From an uncultured Elusimicrobium sp. (lineage in GTDB: Bacteria > Elusimicrobiota > Elusimicrobia > Elusimicrobiales > Elusimicrobiaceae): DNA of 64,000 nt. This document shows positions 27,561-63,746 of the stretch, in pieces. A program made the position numbers and the translations under genes. The notes beneath the pieces were generated by a model. It saw only the letters and a program-made list of their open reading frames with translations. It searched no databases and was not told the origin of the DNA. The DNA lies in contig CADBRU010000008.1 of assembly GCA_902797165.1 (NCBI GenBank), positions 81,471 to 145,470 on the forward strand. Direction: 5' to 3'. Numbering within the stretch: position 1 is the first letter of the stretch; each line of letters opens with the position of its first letter.

Positions 27561-28031
27561 ATGAAGAAAGGATTTACATTGATTGAACTGCTGGTAGTAG
27601 TCTTAATTATCGGTATTTTGTCTGCTATTGCCTTGCCGCAATATACCAAAGCCGTGGAAAAAGCCCGCGCCAGTGAAGCCATGATTATAATGCGATCTAT
27701 TGCCGATGCTAACAAACGTTATCATATGGCTAATGGAACTTATGCCACTTTGCTTTCCGATTTAGATATTGATGTGCCGGGAAGTGAAGTGGGGGATGAA
27801 TTGCAGCGTAGAGCAACAAAGTATTTTGAATATGGGTGTAAAAGTTATTCTACAGAAAATCAAATTGCGGTTGCGCAACGTTTACCATCAGACACAAATT
27901 ATGCTTTAGCCATCGACTGGGATGGGCTTTGGTGGTGTAAAGGATATAGTGCGGAAGGGGTAAAAAACTGCAAAATGTTAGGCGCTACGAATGCTACGGC
28001 AACTGATGTGTTGTACGAGATAAAACACTAG
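27561..28031 (+). CDS. Type IV prepilin (pilin paralogue 4)
   Basis: The only plus-strand prepilin here, 156 residues from ATG 27561, preceded by AGAAAGGAG. MKKGFTLIELL leader, Phe5, Glu9, helix to ALPQYTKAVEKARASEA. The globular domain has YHMANGTYATLLSDLDIDVPG, a pattern common in PilE/pseudopilin-like proteins, and three cysteines (about residues 98-134). It sits convergent with the acyltransferase gene (9 bases apart) and divergent from dxs, so it seems to be an individually inserted unit. Confidence 0.9.
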   Translation: MKKGFTLIELLVVVLIIGILSAIALPQYTKAVEKARASEAMIIMRSIADANKRYHMANGTYATLLSDLDIDVPGSEVGDELQRRATKYFEYGCKSYSTENQIAVAQRLPSDTNYALAIDWDGLWWCKGYSAEGVKNCKMLGATNATATDVLYEIKH

Positions 28032-56832: not shown

Positions 56833-57990
56833 ATGAAACAATTTAAAAATAACGGAAAACTAAAACTTTTAATTATTGTAGGTACGCGGCCCGAGATTAT
56901 CCGCTTGGCGGCCGTTATCAAAAAATGCCGCAAATACTTTGATGTGCTGCTTGCGCACACCGGTCAAAATTACGATTACAATTTAAACGGTGTATTCTTT
57001 AAAGATCTGCAACTGGGTGAACCGGAAATTTACTTAGATGCCGTCGGTAAAGACTTGGGTGAAACTATGGGGAACATTATTGCCAAATCATATGAACTGA
57101 TGGTAAATGTAAAGCCCGATGCAGTGCTGGTGCTGGGGGATACAAACAGTTGTTTGTCTGTGATCGGAGCCAAACGCTTGCACATTCCTATATTTCATAT
57201 GGAAGCCGGAAACCGCTGCAAAGATGAGTGTTTGCCCGAAGAAACCAACCGCCGCATTGTGGATATCATTAGCGACGTGAATTTGTGCTACAGTGAGCAC
57301 GCCCGCCGGTATTTGGCAGAAAACGGACTTCCCAAAGAGCGCACCTATGTAACGGGCAGCCCTATGGCGGAAGTACTACGCGCCAATTTGCCGCAAATTG
57401 AAAAGAGTGATGTATTAAAGAAATTAGGACTTACCAAAGGAAAATATATTTTACTTTCCGCACACCGCGAAGAAAACATTGATACGGAAGAAAATTTCCG
57501 CTCACTTTTTACCGCAATTAATAAACTGGCAGAAAAGTACGATATGCCTATTTTATATTCGTGCCACCCGCGCAGTAAAAAACGCTTGGAAGAGTCCGGC
57601 TTTAAATTAGACAAACGCGTGATTGCCCATGAGCCGCTTGGCTTTCATGATTATAACTGCCTGCAAATGAATGCTTTTGCCGTCGTGTCCGATAGCGGCA
57701 CTTTACCGGAAGAAAGCAGTTTCTATCTCTCTATAGGCAAACCGTTCCCGGCGGTATGTATCCGCACTTCTACAGAGCGCCCCGAGGCATTAGATAAAGG
57801 CTGTTTTGTGCTGGCGGGCATTCGCACTCAGTCACTGCTGCAAGCCGTAGAAACAGCCGTAGAAATGGCAAAGAACGGGGACAACGGACTTCCCGTACCT
57901 GATTACGCAGATGAGAATGTATCTACTAAAGTAGTTAAAATTATTCAGAGTTATGTGGAAGTTGTCAACCGTATGGTTTGGCGGAAATAA
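56833..57990 (+). CDS. capG: UDP-HexNAc 2-epimerase (CapG/FnlC/WecB family)
   Basis: Inverts C2 of a UDP-HexNAc; in this context it completes UDP-L-FucNAc. It has 385 residues. Family motifs: VGTRPEIIRLAAVI (15-28), THTGQNYD-type AHTGQNYD (about 43-50), HMEAGNR, EETNRRIVD, SAHREENID (about 216-224) and SDSGTLPEES (about 281-290). AAGGAGTTTAT precedes the start. Last gene of the polysaccharide locus. WecB (UDP-GlcNAc to UDP-ManNAc) is the alternative, but capE and capF upstream favour CapG. Confidence 0.9.
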   Translation: MKQFKNNGKLKLLIIVGTRPEIIRLAAVIKKCRKYFDVLLAHTGQNYDYNLNGVFFKDLQLGEPEIYLDAVGKDLGETMGNIIAKSYELMVNVKPDAVLVLGDTNSCLSVIGAKRLHIPIFHMEAGNRCKDECLPEETNRRIVDIISDVNLCYSEHARRYLAENGLPKERTYVTGSPMAEVLRANLPQIEKSDVLKKLGLTKGKYILLSAHREENIDTEENFRSLFTAINKLAEKYDMPILYSCHPRSKKRLEESGFKLDKRVIAHEPLGFHDYNCLQMNAFAVVSDSGTLPEESSFYLSIGKPFPAVCIRTSTERPEALDKGCFVLAGIRTQSLLQAVETAVEMAKNGDNGLPVPDYADENVSTKVVKIIQSYVEVVNRMVWRK

Positions 57991-58158: not shown

Positions 58159-58186
58159 TTGAAAATTCACGAATATTTACTATAAT
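58159..58186 (+). promoter_or_regulatory. Promoter of DUF4402 subunit gene
   Basis: TTGAAA (58159-58164), 16-base spacer, TATAAT (58181-58186), in a 240-base AT-rich gap after capG. A strong AGGAGGAAATT ribosome site follows, suggesting high expression. Confidence 0.65.
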
Positions 58187-58231
58187 ATTCTTATATCCGT
58201 TAGTTCATGACGGAATATACAGGAGGAAATT

Positions 58232-58720
58232 ATGAAAAAGATTATTGTTTTGTTAGGGTTGTTTGCTTTTTCCGCTGTATTAGCGTCCGCTGCTCAAACA
58301 AGCGCGAACGGTACAGCCAGAGCCAAAATCATTTCTGCGGCTACTATCACAAACGTTAGAGATTTGAATTTTGGTACTATTATCCCGGGAACAAGCCAAG
58401 GTACGGTGACCATCGCAAATGCGGATGCTTCTTCTGCTACCGATTCTGCTGAAATCGGCGGAAGAGCGGCCGGTACAGTGTCTTCGGCTCAGTTTGACTT
58501 AGCCAACTTAGATACTGCGTTGCACTACACTGTTGCGGTGGATTCGAACGTAACGCTTACCTCCGCAGACAACAGTATGACGGCAACTTTGGGATTGTCT
58601 GATAACGATGTTACCGGTGTAACCTCTAAGTCCGTTTACGTGGGTGGTGTGCTGACTGTTCCTGCCGGACAAGCAGCAGGTGAATACAGTGGTACCTTCA
58701 CCGTAACGGTAACTTACTAA
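58232..58720 (+). CDS. DUF4402-like fimbrial subunit, single domain
   Basis: Exported protein of 162 residues. Signal peptide to about residue 20 (MKKIIVLLGLFAFSAVLASA). The mature part is one beta-sandwich domain with the DUF4402 hallmarks: ATITNVRDLNFGTI near residue 38, then a G-T-V-T-I strand, VGGVLTVPAGQAAGEYSGTF near the end and the terminal VTVTY. It has no cysteine and is Ala/Thr/Ser-rich, like abundant surface subunits. Next come a PapD-like chaperone and an usher-like gene, so it is probably the major pilin of a chaperone-usher fibre. Own promoter and terminator suggest it is made in excess over the assembly proteins. Confidence 0.8.
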   Translation: MKKIIVLLGLFAFSAVLASAAQTSANGTARAKIISAATITNVRDLNFGTIIPGTSQGTVTIANADASSATDSAEIGGRAAGTVSSAQFDLANLDTALHYTVAVDSNVTLTSADNSMTATLGLSDNDVTGVTSKSVYVGGVLTVPAGQAAGEYSGTFTVTVTY

Positions 58721-58737
58721 CAAAAACAAGTTTTAAA

Positions 58738-58767
58738 AAACACCTCCGCAAGGGGGTGTTTTTTTGT
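58738..58767 (+). terminator. Terminator after the DUF4402 subunit
   Basis: AACACCTCC pairs with GGGGGTGTT over GCAA with one mismatch, then seven T. Partial read-through would explain lower chaperone and usher levels. Confidence 0.88.
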
Positions 58768-58791
58768 GGTCAAAAATCTTAAAATTTTACG

Positions 58792-58819
58792 GTGAAAACT
58801 CTATTTATTTTGTTATACT
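58792..58819 (+). promoter_or_regulatory. Possible promoter of the chaperone-usher pair
   Basis: TATACT at 58814-58819 with a weak GTGAAA -35 at 58792-58797 (16-base spacer). It lies between the subunit terminator and the chaperone gene. Confidence 0.45.
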
Positions 58820-58886
58820 GTAAATTAGGAGTATTTGTATGAGGAAAATCGTACACTACTCTAACTTACTGACACAAGGAGAACAC

Positions 58887-59747
58887 ATGAGAAAATTAGT
58901 TGCATGTTGTGTTTTATGTAGTATGGCTCTATCGGCCTCGGCCGGGATTATGATTTATCCGAAAGCCTTATCTTTTGATGATAAAACAAAATCTGCCGAA
59001 GTGACACTTGTTAACTCCAGTGAACTGGAAAGTGCCAATTACCGGGTGACAATCTCGTATAAAAAGCAAAACCCGGATGGCTCTTATACCGAAGTTGCCG
59101 AAGAAGAAGTTCCCGCAGACAGCGCCACTAAACTGCTGCGCTACAGTCCGCGCGCGGTTATGCTTAAGCCTTCCCAAAGCCAAACGGTTCGTTTCTTAAA
59201 ACGTTTACCGTCCGGTTTACAACCCGGTGAATATGTGGCTTATGCAACCTTTACCGAAGTACCATTGGAAAAAGCAGTTACCAAACAAGATTTACAACCC
59301 GGTGCCTTTAGTGTTAAGATTACTCCGATTCCGGCATTTTCTATCCCGGTTTTTGTGCGTTATAAAGTAAAAGAAAGCGCTCCCGTCACTTTAGCCACCA
59401 ACGGACTGGAAACAAAAGACGGAGTCGTTTCCTTGCGTGTAGTAATGAGCCGGCAAGAGCAAGAGCCCCGCACTTCCGCCCGTGGTGATATCAGCGTATG
59501 GGACGGAGATAAAATGATCGGCTATGTACGCGGACGCTATATGTTGCCCGCTACGGATACCTTAGAAACCCGCGTTCCGCTTCGTATTGCCAATGCGGTA
59601 GTCAAAGAAGATGGTAAGATGGAAGATAAATACTTAACGTCTGCAAATCTAAAAGGGAAAACCTTAACCGTACTTTTTACCGAAACGAACGATTACGTAG
59701 TCCAAAAAGACAAAGTATTTGCTCAAACCACAGTATCCTTTAAATAA
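58887..59747 (+). CDS. PapD-like periplasmic pilus chaperone
   Basis: Periplasmic chaperone that caps fimbrial subunits. It has 286 residues from ATG 58887 (ACAAGGAGAACAC site); an in-frame start at 58839 is less likely because the signal peptide begins at MRKLVACCVL. Signal to about residue 21. The first domain (about 22-150) has IMIYPKALSFDDKTKSAEVTLVNSS-type strands and the G1-like block PRAVMLKPSQSQTVRFLKR, where PapD chaperones have PxxxxLxPGxxQ.R. The second domain starts near residue 155 with FSIPVFVRYK, typical of archaic or alternative chaperones. It lies 12 bases before the usher. Confidence 0.82.
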   Translation: MRKLVACCVLCSMALSASAGIMIYPKALSFDDKTKSAEVTLVNSSELESANYRVTISYKKQNPDGSYTEVAEEEVPADSATKLLRYSPRAVMLKPSQSQTVRFLKRLPSGLQPGEYVAYATFTEVPLEKAVTKQDLQPGAFSVKITPIPAFSIPVFVRYKVKESAPVTLATNGLETKDGVVSLRVVMSRQEQEPRTSARGDISVWDGDKMIGYVRGRYMLPATDTLETRVPLRIANAVVKEDGKMEDKYLTSANLKGKTLTVLFTETNDYVVQKDKVFAQTTVSFK

Positions 59748-59759
59748 GGAGAAATCTTC

Positions 59760-62732
59760 TTGTTGTTACGTAAGTTTTTATTAGGTATATGTGTCGTGCT
59801 TCTGGCGTTAACGCTGGGAGCACGGCTTGCGTATGCCCAAGAACAACAAGACAACATTGTAATTATTCATGCCTATTCCGGTCCGGTAATTATCAACTCC
59901 GCACTGGAGGCCATGTACCAAGATAACCGCTTGTTTTTGCCCGTTTCTTACCTTTCCGAAGATGTAGAAGTACCTATCACCTATGATAAAGAATCGCACC
60001 GTTTAACCGGTTGGCTGGAAAATGAAAGTAATACCGTGGTGGTAGATTTCAAAAACGGTACAGGCCGCACCGGCAAAAATATGTTTGATTTTACTGCGGA
60101 TGATTATTTGTACTACGAAGATGAACTTTATTTATCCGTCGAATTAGTCGATAAAATTTTAAACACCATCAGTCAGTTTGATTTTTCCGATCAATCGTTA
60201 AGTGTAATTACCGCCGGGAATTTGCCTTTTGATAAACAACTCTCCCGTCTTAAAAAACAGCAACGTTTTGACCAAGTAACTCGGCAGAAAGAAGCAGAGC
60301 GGTTAGCTGCACAAAACAAAGATGTTTGGACGCAAAAAAATTGGCTGCAAATGCCGTTTGTAGATTTGTCGGCCAGATACTCCCTTTCTAAAAGCAAGCA
60401 TACGGACTGGACCGATAACTTGGTTTATTCTGCCAATGCTGCCTTTTTAACCGGTGGGTTTGACTCGGAATTTAATGCGTATGCTTCGTCCGTACATGAA
60501 GATCCGATCTTTTCTTTCAAAACCGCGCGCGAAGATGAAACCGGCCATATTTTAGGCCTGTTCAAACATTTAGAATTGGGTGATACCTACGCCTATTCCA
60601 ATGCGGAAAACAATTCATCTGTGGTCGGACGCGGTATTAAAATGTCTACCGATTCTCTTTTGTCACCGGATGATAAAACATATACTTTCCGCGATGCCTT
60701 GCCTTTGGGGTGGGAAGTGGAATTGTACCGCAACGGGGAATTGCTCGGTTATCAAAATAGAACTGATGACGGATATTTTGAATTTGCCGATATTCCGCTT
60801 CTATTGGGTAAAAATAAATTTAAACTGGTCTTCTACGGTCCGCAAGGACAAGTCAAAGAAAAAGAGCAAATTATTTTCTTTAACGGTAATGTCCTAAACC
60901 GGGGTAAAGGGCGCTTGCGCTTGGACTATATTGACAAAAACCGGCCGCTAATTCCTACAAACAATAAAATACGTGATGTCGCTTTGGGGCATAGCGCTTA
61001 TATAGAGGCCGGCTATGGCTTGACGGATAGTTTGACTTTAAGCGTGGCCGCCATGGCCGAGTCATTGGAGTTATACTACGATTGGCCGCCGCAGGCCTCA
61101 TACCGCAAAGATCAAGAGTATGTGTCCGGTAATTTATCCCTTTTTGCGTATGGTATTTTTTCCAGCCTCGGTACAGTAGTAGATTTGGAAAATTCCGTGG
61201 CTACGGTGGATTATTACGGACAAACCTCTTTATGGGACTGGGATATTACTTTTCAAAATATTTATTACGGCAAAGCCGTAACCGGACGTAATTTATTCCA
61301 AAACACTACCATGGAAAATGAAACCTCTTTGCGTTTGAATAAAATGCTGTCTGTTGTCCCGTGGTTTAGAATACCTCTTTCTTATACATTCCGTCATTTT
61401 ACCGTAACGCGTGATTCCGGTTCGCAGACGGAGCATACAGTGTCTCTTTCTCAAACTTTACCGTTTAATATTTTTACCAATTTGCAATATCAAGATTATC
61501 ATTATTACGGCGGCCTTCGTGATGACAGTTTAAGTTTAACGGCTAACCATGTGAAAGGCAAATGGACCATGCGCGGCGGTGTTTCGTATGATTTTACCTA
61601 TGACCGCTTATATAGCACCGATTTTTCCGTTTATCGCTCTATTACCGATCGTATTAAAGCCGGTGCACGTTATGCTTATCAATCGCGTAGTTTAACTTTT
61701 CACTCCTATGAAAGTTTATACTCGGCCAATTTAAGTTATTTAACCAAATACGGTTATATTTCACTGGAAGCCGGCACGTCTAACTGGCACAACACATACG
61801 GATTTATCGGATACAATATGTCCTTCTTACCCGATGTGCGCAATCATCGACTTTATGCCACCGGTACTAAATTACAAGGCACAGGAGCCCTTTCCGCTTT
61901 TGCGTATATGGATGCCAACAACAACGGTACCTTTGACGAAGGGGATACCCCGTTGCCTGATGCCGATGTAAACATTAAACCCGGTGTAAACGTGTATGAT
62001 TCTCATAAGAAAAACAGTCAGGGAACGGTTCTGCTCTCTCACATTCCGGCTTATCGTACCTTTGACGTAGATGCGGACATTACAGGGATAGAAGATACCC
62101 TGTCATTACTTAATACTGCCGGTTCCCGCACAATTAAACTACGCCCGGCACAGGTGGCCTATTTGACGTTCCCCATTGTAGGTACGGGGGATATTGAAGG
62201 TACCGTATACAAAGAAGAAGGCGGCCGTCAGAAACCGTTTAAAGGGGCCATGGTAAACTTGTATAAAGACGGGCAATTAATCGGCAATAAAGTATCTGAA
62301 TTTGACGGATATTATTCTTTCAGTCAGGTACCGCTGGGTATTTATACCATATCGATAGACCCGGACCAATCGGAAGATTTAGAGTTAAAACAACGACAAG
62401 AAATTACGGTTTTGTTAAACCAAATCGAACAATTGGAAGTGCGCGATATTACCTTACAATCGACGGCTTCTTCGCAAGTGCAACCCGAACCGCAACAAGT
62501 TGCCAAGCCGAAAGCGGTGCCGGCAAAATCAAATAATCAAGTTAAGAAACAAAAGTCCGCTACCGCCAAACGAAAAACTATTTCCCGGCCAGTGCAAGCA
62601 CAACCGGAGCAGCCGGCTGTTACTTCCTGTAATGATAAGGAAACCATGACTGAAAAGGTAGCGTGTTGGTTAGGCCAGTTCAAACAATATTGCAAGGATG
62701 TTTGGCACAAACTGCAAGAAATGAGAAAGTAA
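59760..62732 (+). CDS. Usher-like outer-membrane protein with extended C-terminus
   Basis: A 990-residue protein, TTG start at 59760 after AAGGAGAAATCTTC; no nearby ATG keeps the signal peptide (MLLRKFLLGICVVLLALTLG..., cut near residue 26). Residues about 50-130 are a beta domain reminiscent of TcfC/CFA-type usher N-domains. A plug-like domain has LGWEVELYRNGELLGYQ (about 318-334) and DGYFEFADIPLL. A long barrel of Tyr-rich strands covers about 380-700. Then come SdrB-like (AFAYMDANNNGTFDEGD) and carboxypeptidase-regulatory-like (GTVYKEEGG...YYSFSQVPLG) domains and a Lys/Pro-rich, Cys-containing tail of about 90 residues. Its role is likely to be secreting and assembling DUF4402 fibres. Confidence 0.75.
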   Translation: MLLRKFLLGICVVLLALTLGARLAYAQEQQDNIVIIHAYSGPVIINSALEAMYQDNRLFLPVSYLSEDVEVPITYDKESHRLTGWLENESNTVVVDFKNGTGRTGKNMFDFTADDYLYYEDELYLSVELVDKILNTISQFDFSDQSLSVITAGNLPFDKQLSRLKKQQRFDQVTRQKEAERLAAQNKDVWTQKNWLQMPFVDLSARYSLSKSKHTDWTDNLVYSANAAFLTGGFDSEFNAYASSVHEDPIFSFKTAREDETGHILGLFKHLELGDTYAYSNAENNSSVVGRGIKMSTDSLLSPDDKTYTFRDALPLGWEVELYRNGELLGYQNRTDDGYFEFADIPLLLGKNKFKLVFYGPQGQVKEKEQIIFFNGNVLNRGKGRLRLDYIDKNRPLIPTNNKIRDVALGHSAYIEAGYGLTDSLTLSVAAMAESLELYYDWPPQASYRKDQEYVSGNLSLFAYGIFSSLGTVVDLENSVATVDYYGQTSLWDWDITFQNIYYGKAVTGRNLFQNTTMENETSLRLNKMLSVVPWFRIPLSYTFRHFTVTRDSGSQTEHTVSLSQTLPFNIFTNLQYQDYHYYGGLRDDSLSLTANHVKGKWTMRGGVSYDFTYDRLYSTDFSVYRSITDRIKAGARYAYQSRSLTFHSYESLYSANLSYLTKYGYISLEAGTSNWHNTYGFIGYNMSFLPDVRNHRLYATGTKLQGTGALSAFAYMDANNNGTFDEGDTPLPDADVNIKPGVNVYDSHKKNSQGTVLLSHIPAYRTFDVDADITGIEDTLSLLNTAGSRTIKLRPAQVAYLTFPIVGTGDIEGTVYKEEGGRQKPFKGAMVNLYKDGQLIGNKVSEFDGYYSFSQVPLGIYTISIDPDQSEDLELKQRQEITVLLNQIEQLEVRDITLQSTASSQVQPEPQQVAKPKAVPAKSNNQVKKQKSATAKRKTISRPVQAQPEQPAVTSCNDKETMTEKVACWLGQFKQYCKDVWHKLQEMRK

Positions 62733-62816
62733 TATAGTAGCAGTTTTCTAGGCAAAGAAATAATCCCTGCCTCTTTAGTTGCAAAATTTCATATAATACG
62801 AAAGGATACTACTAAG

Positions 62817-63746
62817 TTAGTAAGTAACGGTGACCTGATATGATCCGGTATAATCACCGATTGAAATGTTGGGCGGAATTGTTAAAGTGCCGCCCACCGT
62901 TAAGGTTGCACTTGTACCTGCCATGGTGCAGGAAGTACAGGAGGGGGTAAATGCACTTACGGTGAGGGTATCAATTCCGTTACTTATATCTGCAGAGTTT
63001 GGCACACTCACGTTGTAAACCAGTCCGGTAGGAGCCACAATATTAAATTGATCGGCTGAAGTATGCCCAAGGTCTAAACAACGTAAATTAGTGTACGTTA
63101 CGGTGCCGGCAGGAGAAATTGTAACCGTTTGTTGTTGATTGGAGAGACAAATTTGGCCAAAATCCAGTGCTTGTCCGTCCGCATGTGACAATTTGGCAAC
63201 GGGGACTATTTGTGCGGTAATATTGACGTTTAATGCGGTGTCTCTGCCGAAGGTGCCTACCTTGTAAGTAAGTAAATCGGAAATGGTACCGGAAAGCGTG
63301 CAAGGGGCATCCGTGCCGGTAATTTGCGAAAAAGAACTAACTACCAAATCCGCACCTATGTTAAAACTAGCAGAGAGAGACCAACGTCCTCCGCTTGCGC
63401 TCGTGGCACCTCCGGTGGTGGTCGTATTTTTAATTGTGACAGTCCCGCCGCAACCGCTTACGGTTTTTGAAGTTTTCTTGGTAGTGACTGTGGCCTCTGA
63501 AGCAAGTTCAAGGATGTTCTTTTCTATTTCCACCGTCCCGGCAGCACCACCGGTTTGATTTGTGATGTTTCCGCTTCCGGTATGAGTAACCGAACTAGCA
63601 TCGGAAACGGCTACGGTGCTAAAGCCGGAGCCGTCCGGACAAAAGTAAATCGTTCCGAAATCAATAGTGGGCTCAGTGGCACTGGCCGCCCATGCTAGTT
63701 CGGATAAACCTAAAAGAATGAATAAATAAAATAAATTTCTCTTCAT
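62817..63746 (-). CDS. Two-domain DUF4402-like protein, putative tip adhesin
   Basis: Exported protein of 309 residues, convergent with the usher gene. Signal peptide MKRNLFYLFILLGLSELAWA. Two domains of similar pattern: TIDFGTIYFCPDG...STVAV (about 27-185) and ALDFGQICLSNQQQTVTISPAG (from about 190), the second ending YTGSYQVTVTY, close to the YSGTFTVTVTY end of the subunit at 58232. Unlike that subunit it has several cysteine pairs. In chaperone-usher fibres the two-domain subunit is the tip adhesin, with a lectin domain first and a pilin domain second; that is the likeliest reading, but binding specificity is unknown. Confidence 0.7.
   Translation of the reverse strand: MKRNLFYLFILLGLSELAWAASATEPTIDFGTIYFCPDGSGFSTVAVSDASSVTHTGSGNITNQTGGAAGTVEIEKNILELASEATVTTKKTSKTVSGCGGTVTIKNTTTTGGATSASGGRWSLSASFNIGADLVVSSFSQITGTDAPCTLSGTISDLLTYKVGTFGRDTALNVNITAQIVPVAKLSHADGQALDFGQICLSNQQQTVTISPAGTVTYTNLRCLDLGHTSADQFNIVAPTGLVYNVSVPNSADISNGIDTLTVSAFTPSCTSCTMAGTSATLTVGGTLTIPPNISIGDYTGSYQVTVTY

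Follow-up and report, generated by a model that had tools for sequence, protein, structure and literature searches.

A probable chaperone-usher locus with DUF4402 pilins and an usher outside the three known classes in an uncultured Elusimicrobium

We analyzed a window of 64,000 nucleotides from an uncultured Elusimicrobium sp. (contig CADBRU010000008.1, positions 81,471 to 145,470), which forms the end of its contig in an assembly of 1.31 Mb (GCA_902797165.1). Positions 58159–63746 of the window hold four genes, encoding a single-domain DUF4402 protein, a PapD-type chaperone, an usher-like outer-membrane protein, and a two-domain DUF4402 protein. This locus very probably is a chaperone-usher system with an usher that our tree places outside the three known classes; the DUF4402 proteins are predicted to be its pilins, the two-domain one likely forming the tip. 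An initial annotation, made from the sequence alone, had proposed a chaperone-usher fimbrial locus here and guessed at an origin in Elusimicrobiota. The origin was guessed correctly, the open reading frames (ORFs) place all four genes where it had put them, and its chaperone-usher reading is supported, with two corrections: the system is not confined to Elusimicrobiota, and its usher belongs, in our tree, to a clade outside the three classes. By eye, all four proteins have N-termini resembling signal peptides. Two papers sort chaperone-usher systems into classical, alternative, and archaic groups, the last being spread across many phyla (PMC9452303, PMC10104325).

The usher-like protein (59760–62732, + strand) has 990 residues and starts with TTG, as does its relative in L006. 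Structure models were made for single chains of the usher and of the two-domain protein. The AlphaFold model of the usher has a predicted local distance difference test (pLDDT) of 84.1 and a predicted template-modeling (TM) score of 0.64, and its best fold matches are FimD and PapC, though with TM-scores of only 0.3–0.6 over the whole model. The VIA-align alignment covers residues 189–899 in most rows, with the span reaching 899–902; as it starts at about residue 189, the N-terminal domain is barely tested by the fold. In hhalign comparisons, the usher profile matched the archaic, alternative, and classical ushers with probabilities of 99.3 (over 685 columns), 98.6, and 95.8, respectively, versus 6.5, 23.6, and 2.1 for the same profiles reversed. 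The usher-like barrel of the initial annotation is hence borne out by predicted fold and profile. Family profiles were needed for such comparisons, because single K-12 proteins gave weak hhalign results (EcpE 92.9, EcpC 57.2, EcpB 35.6, FimC 20.0, FimD 1.5, FimA 0.3, and EcpA 0.1). A single-sequence PDB search with the usher gave nothing useful, and a profile search retrieved chiefly SdrD-type domains. The Usher family (PF00577) matches neither the window protein nor any of 38 members of its family at E ≤ 0.01; in comparison scans, FimD scored 761 bits and EcpC was unmatched. SdrD_B and CarboxypepD_reg fall barely below their cut-offs in the window usher, and TcfC, SpaA, and Cu_amine_oxidN1 are weaker.

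The model and profile homology predict an usher architecture of barrel, plug, and C-terminal domains. The barrel spans residues 196–692 (60345–61835, +) by the secondary structure of the model, with 6 + 18 long strands counted by eye, and the plug region lies inside it at about residues 307–374 (60678–60881, +). Two C-terminal β-sandwich domains follow at residues 706–902 (61875–62465, +), where the SdrD_B/CarboxypepD_reg matches fall. The N-terminal domain, about residues 28–151 (59841–60212, +), would by analogy serve to dock the chaperone; its profile matches none of the archaic, alternative, and classical N-domains (4.0, 0.3, and 1.5). Domain by domain, the profile scores fall below those of the whole usher: against the same three classes, the barrel with plug gave 97.1, 91.6, and 84.6, and the C-terminal domains 82.7, 31.9, and 59.9, while the plug alone gave 10.2 (alternative) and 0.8 (classical). 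The C-terminal tail (residues 903–990; 62466–62729) is rich in Lys, Pro, and Gln and mostly of low model confidence, with a predicted helix at its end. Some ushers carry additional domains. SPOR occurs in 3 and AMIN in 2 of the 38, and SPOR in 10/120 among the relatives listed (ushers of other phyla: A6; P0052–P0110); both domains bind peptidoglycan, and their bearers are perhaps anchored to the cell wall. Among the matches listed, the usher relative P0038 (630 residues) has DUF4402 as its precomputed domain and is perhaps an usher part fused to a subunit.

The chaperone gene (58887–59747, +) encodes 286 residues from its likely start; the ORF opens at 58839, and the ATG at 58887 is preferred because AAGGAG precedes it and the resulting length fits most relatives. 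By profile, the protein is a PapD-type periplasmic chaperone, matching the archaic, alternative, and classical chaperones with probabilities of 98.6, 97.8, and 95.5, as against 0.4 (alternative) and 0.2 (classical) for reversed profiles. Its PapD_N score is 18.2 bits, below the cut-off of 23. The families named by the initial annotation fared unevenly in hidden Markov model (HMM) searches: PF14352 was found, PapD_N stayed under its cut-off, Usher gave no match, and the likeness to PapD stood by profile comparison. At E ≤ 0.01, 32 of 54 chaperone members match PapD_N and 33 match fn3_5, a name that sounds unrelated to PapD. A single-sequence PDB search gave nothing useful here either, and a profile search returned FimC (E 0.056) and PapD (E 0.56) marginally, below two WxLIP chains (about 0.04). 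Classical chaperones such as FimC anchor the subunit through a lysine and an arginine. The position aligned with the lysine is proline in 54/54 chaperones, and the one aligned with the arginine is arginine in 44/54 and alanine in the window protein.

We then placed the usher among the known classes in a tree of 45 rows (21 DUF4402-linked, 8 archaic, 9 alternative, 5 classical, and 2 other). Each usher group forms one clade. A branch of length 1.43 (support 100/100) sets the DUF4402-linked clade, whose members are down to about 20% identical among themselves, apart from all 24 others, and the eight archaic ushers form a clade of their own (100/99). In this tree, the usher thus falls outside the classical, alternative, and archaic classes. 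Profile scores, which are only rough because the profiles differ in depth, agree with a separate clade: archaic-classical 385, archaic-alternative 188, DUF4402-archaic 187, DUF4402-alternative 147, alternative-classical 139, and DUF4402-classical 85. Two ushers with weak PF00577 matches, L146 (G056, of the window's order; 29.2 bits) and L147 (G063; 42.5 bits), make up a further small clade near the archaic and classical ones.

The archaic (sigma) class, exemplified by Csu and CupE, is the nearest by profile for both usher and chaperone, so the system might be a fast-evolving branch of that class. This proximity weighs against a class of its own, as do the spread of archaic systems across many phyla, which the DUF4402 system shares, and the tree itself, which is unrooted and built from very divergent proteins, many rows being uneven in letter make-up. 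A further likeness is the archaic tip CupE6/CsuE, described as two immunoglobulin (Ig)-like folds with an incomplete C-terminal domain (PMC10104325). Against an archaic origin stand the long, fully supported branch and the DUF4402-archaic score, which about equals archaic-alternative and is half of archaic-classical. Archaic systems combine SCPU subunits with ushers carrying PF00577 and PapC_C (5/5 archaic ushers scanned); here, the subunits match DUF4402 in 45/47, SCPU (PF05229) is not among the five families listed for them, and PapC_C is not among the families listed for the 38 ushers. Moreover, Novosphingobium sp. PhB165 harbors both kinds. We therefore regard an archaic side branch as unlikely.

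The alternative (alpha) class, with ECP and CFA/I, resembles the DUF4402 system in EcpC, which is likewise unmatched by PF00577 and whose C-terminus is CarboxypepD_reg-like, in the CfaB pilins, which top the fold matches of the two-domain protein, and in the usher and chaperone profiles. It differs in its subunit families and usher clade; CooC_C is not among the 13 families listed for the 38 ushers, and TcfC appears once, weakly and away from the plug, and in none of 11 genomes of the window's order. A first hhalign comparison had pointed to kinship with this class, an idea given up once the archaic profiles proved to score higher. The classical class, such as type 1 (Fim) and P (Pap) pili, shares the architecture of barrel, plug, and two C-terminal domains, and its profiles lie farthest from those of the DUF4402 system. 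The proline at the FimC anchor-lysine position sets the DUF4402 system apart from it, and none of the Fim system's Fimbrial subunit, PapC_N, and PapC_C families was found here. Because the DUF4402 system is homologous to the chaperone-usher pathway and would work like it, yet lacks the tested features of all three classes, we regard it as a further class within that pathway.

The single-domain DUF4402 protein (58232–58720, +; 162 residues), predicted to be the major pilin, matches PF14352 with 82.4 bits (E 5.7e-23; curated cut-off 25.2 bits). The two-domain protein (62817–63746, – strand, convergent with the usher gene; 309 residues) matches in two stretches with 99 bits (E 4.3e-28), and both domains exceed the cut-off (80.5 and 30.1 bits). 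Both proteins end in VTVTY. The DUF4402-like nature of the two and their shared C-terminal strand had been noted initially and hold. Genome-wide, the PF14352 cut-off is passed by three stretches, all within this locus, and a fourth, weak match sits on another contig; profile searches with DUF4402 found no clear relative. The model of the two-domain protein (pLDDT 89.7) is pilin-like, with CsuE and CsuA/B also among its fold matches. Self-complemented pilins align to it from residues 18–20 to residues 182–184, and the linker strand between the domains (residues 170–182; 63201–63239, –), a strand in the model, may complete domain 1 as an internal donor. In the subunit, the DUF4402 match begins at residue 38 and is preceded in the mature protein by an N-terminal extension (residues 21–37; 58292–58342, +), which is a candidate donor strand. 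Single-domain proteins have more residues ahead of the LxFG motif than two-domain ones do. The predicted two-domain fold and the extension lengths agree with a putative incomplete Ig-like fold and N-terminal donor strand.

The subunit gene has its own expression signals, as the initial annotation had recognized. A promoter-like site (58159–58186, +; TTGAAA, 16 bases, TATAAT) matches the consensus at 11/12 positions. Since 21 promoter-like sites were observed in the whole window versus 13.9 expected, sites with 9/12 matches carry little meaning. Behind the gene, an intrinsic terminator hairpin of 13 pairs (58735–58764, +; –17.9 kcal/mol) has a fold energy z of –3.7, with 0/200 shuffles equally good; a pattern scan for terminators did not list it, though folding supports it. 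This strong, separate promoter and terminator suggest many subunit copies, and would allow many subunits per few chaperones and ushers.

In the proposed working, the chaperone would fill each incomplete DUF4402 sandwich with one of its strands and bring the subunit to the usher, predicted to fold like FimD/PapC, where the N-terminal extension of the incoming subunit would displace the chaperone strand in the preceding one. The two-domain protein has no N-terminal extension and its domain 1 is apparently completed by the linker, so it would only accept a strand and exit first, as the tip. The resulting polymer may form a fibre and serve in adhesion. It is improbable, but conceivable, that the DUF4402 proteins are exported without a long fibre, as a coat resembling a capsule, a short adhesin, or individual surface proteins: a fibre of the DUF4402 system is not known, and in many proteobacterial loci there is just one DUF4402 gene and the two-domain kind is lacking. 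The N-terminal extensions and the open second domain fit polymers, however, and the subunit's separate signals suggest a high copy number. Afimbrial coats such as Caf1 are linear strand-exchange polymers too, so that coat versus fibre is a matter of degree.

In each of the 8 Elusimicrobiota loci examined (the window and L010–L016), the four genes are clustered, the two-domain gene being convergent in the window only. In a scan of species genomes, 554 stretches encode an usher relative, and among the best 80 of these the chaperone is present in 74, DUF4402 in 71, and both in 71, with the chaperone directly upstream of the usher in 61 pairs. In the nine loci without the full set, the usher ORF begins less than 1,050 bases from the contig end. 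Such co-occurrence, which the initial annotation had proposed to test, extends to other phyla, where it had suspected similar neighbours, and to plasmids; by record titles, the carriers are Elusimicrobia, Alpha- and Gammaproteobacteria, Desulfobacterales and other Deltaproteobacteria, Nitrospinaceae, Zixibacteria, and Lujinxingia. Among named usher relatives, the closest, at 68% identity, comes from 'Elusimicrobia bacterium UBA1202'. Conjugative plasmids carry the same gene set in L105 (Polaromonas sp. JS666 plasmid 2, flanked by IS6 transposases) and L106 (Sphingopyxis pMC4); in three plasmid records, the names given to the genes are DUF4402, chaperone or hypothetical protein, and 'carboxypeptidase (regulatory-)like' protein. 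Micavibrio sp. UBA1672 (L045) carries the complete DUF4402-chaperone-usher set twice within 12 kb. Across 61 related genomes, usher and chaperone are found in the same five, and thus most genomes of the genus are without the system. DUF4402 occurs in those five and, as fragments without chaperone or usher, in two more of the window's genus (L094 of G030 and L095 of G015), as if from a decayed locus. PF00577 was found in 1/61 related genomes and in 2/18 other genomes carrying the system. Family matches among 142 genomes of one class put DUF4402 in 5 and SCPU in 12, both counts including a centre genome chosen as a carrier. That the genes are chance neighbours and the barrel an unrelated porin or carboxypeptidase-regulatory protein, as the lack of a Pfam usher and the name 'carboxypeptidase regulatory-like' in public records would have it, is highly implausible given the linkage in 71/80 loci and on plasmids, the predicted usher fold, and the joint presence or absence of usher and chaperone across the 61 genomes.

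We lean, with less assurance, toward a broader view of the chaperone-usher reading, in which DUF4402 would be a pilin family marking a fourth class whose usher diverged ahead of the separation of the classical, alternative, and archaic ones. This class would dock its chaperone through a new N-terminal domain of the usher, anchor subunits differently in the chaperone, and, in Elusimicrobiota, start its fibre with a tip of two pilin domains linked by an internal donor strand; it would be spread over Elusimicrobiota, Proteobacteria, Desulfobacterota, Nitrospinota, Zixibacteria, others, and conjugative plasmids.

Directly upstream of the locus, a gene at 56833–57990 (+) matches UDP-N-acetylglucosamine 2-epimerase (E 1.5e-78), and by eye the gene before it resembles sugar or polysaccharide synthesis too. 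Elsewhere in the window, the type IV prepilins reported initially were verified as five prepilin-like N-termini at 27570 (+) and 6124, 5514, 36398, and 24986 (–), with nearly identical leader and helix. The cell may therefore display two unrelated kinds of fibre. Literature searches found no paper on DUF4402/PF14352 and nothing on chaperone-usher systems in Elusimicrobiota, with most subscription papers outside their reach, so that absence from print is not proven. If correct, our reading gives a function to the Pfam domain DUF4402 and to ushers publicly named 'carboxypeptidase regulatory-like' or 'SdrD B-like', and places chaperone-usher pili in Elusimicrobiota. A fourth deep usher branch, if real, would let the essential parts of usher and chaperone be sought, because neither the N-domain of known ushers nor the anchor of classical chaperones can be recognized here.
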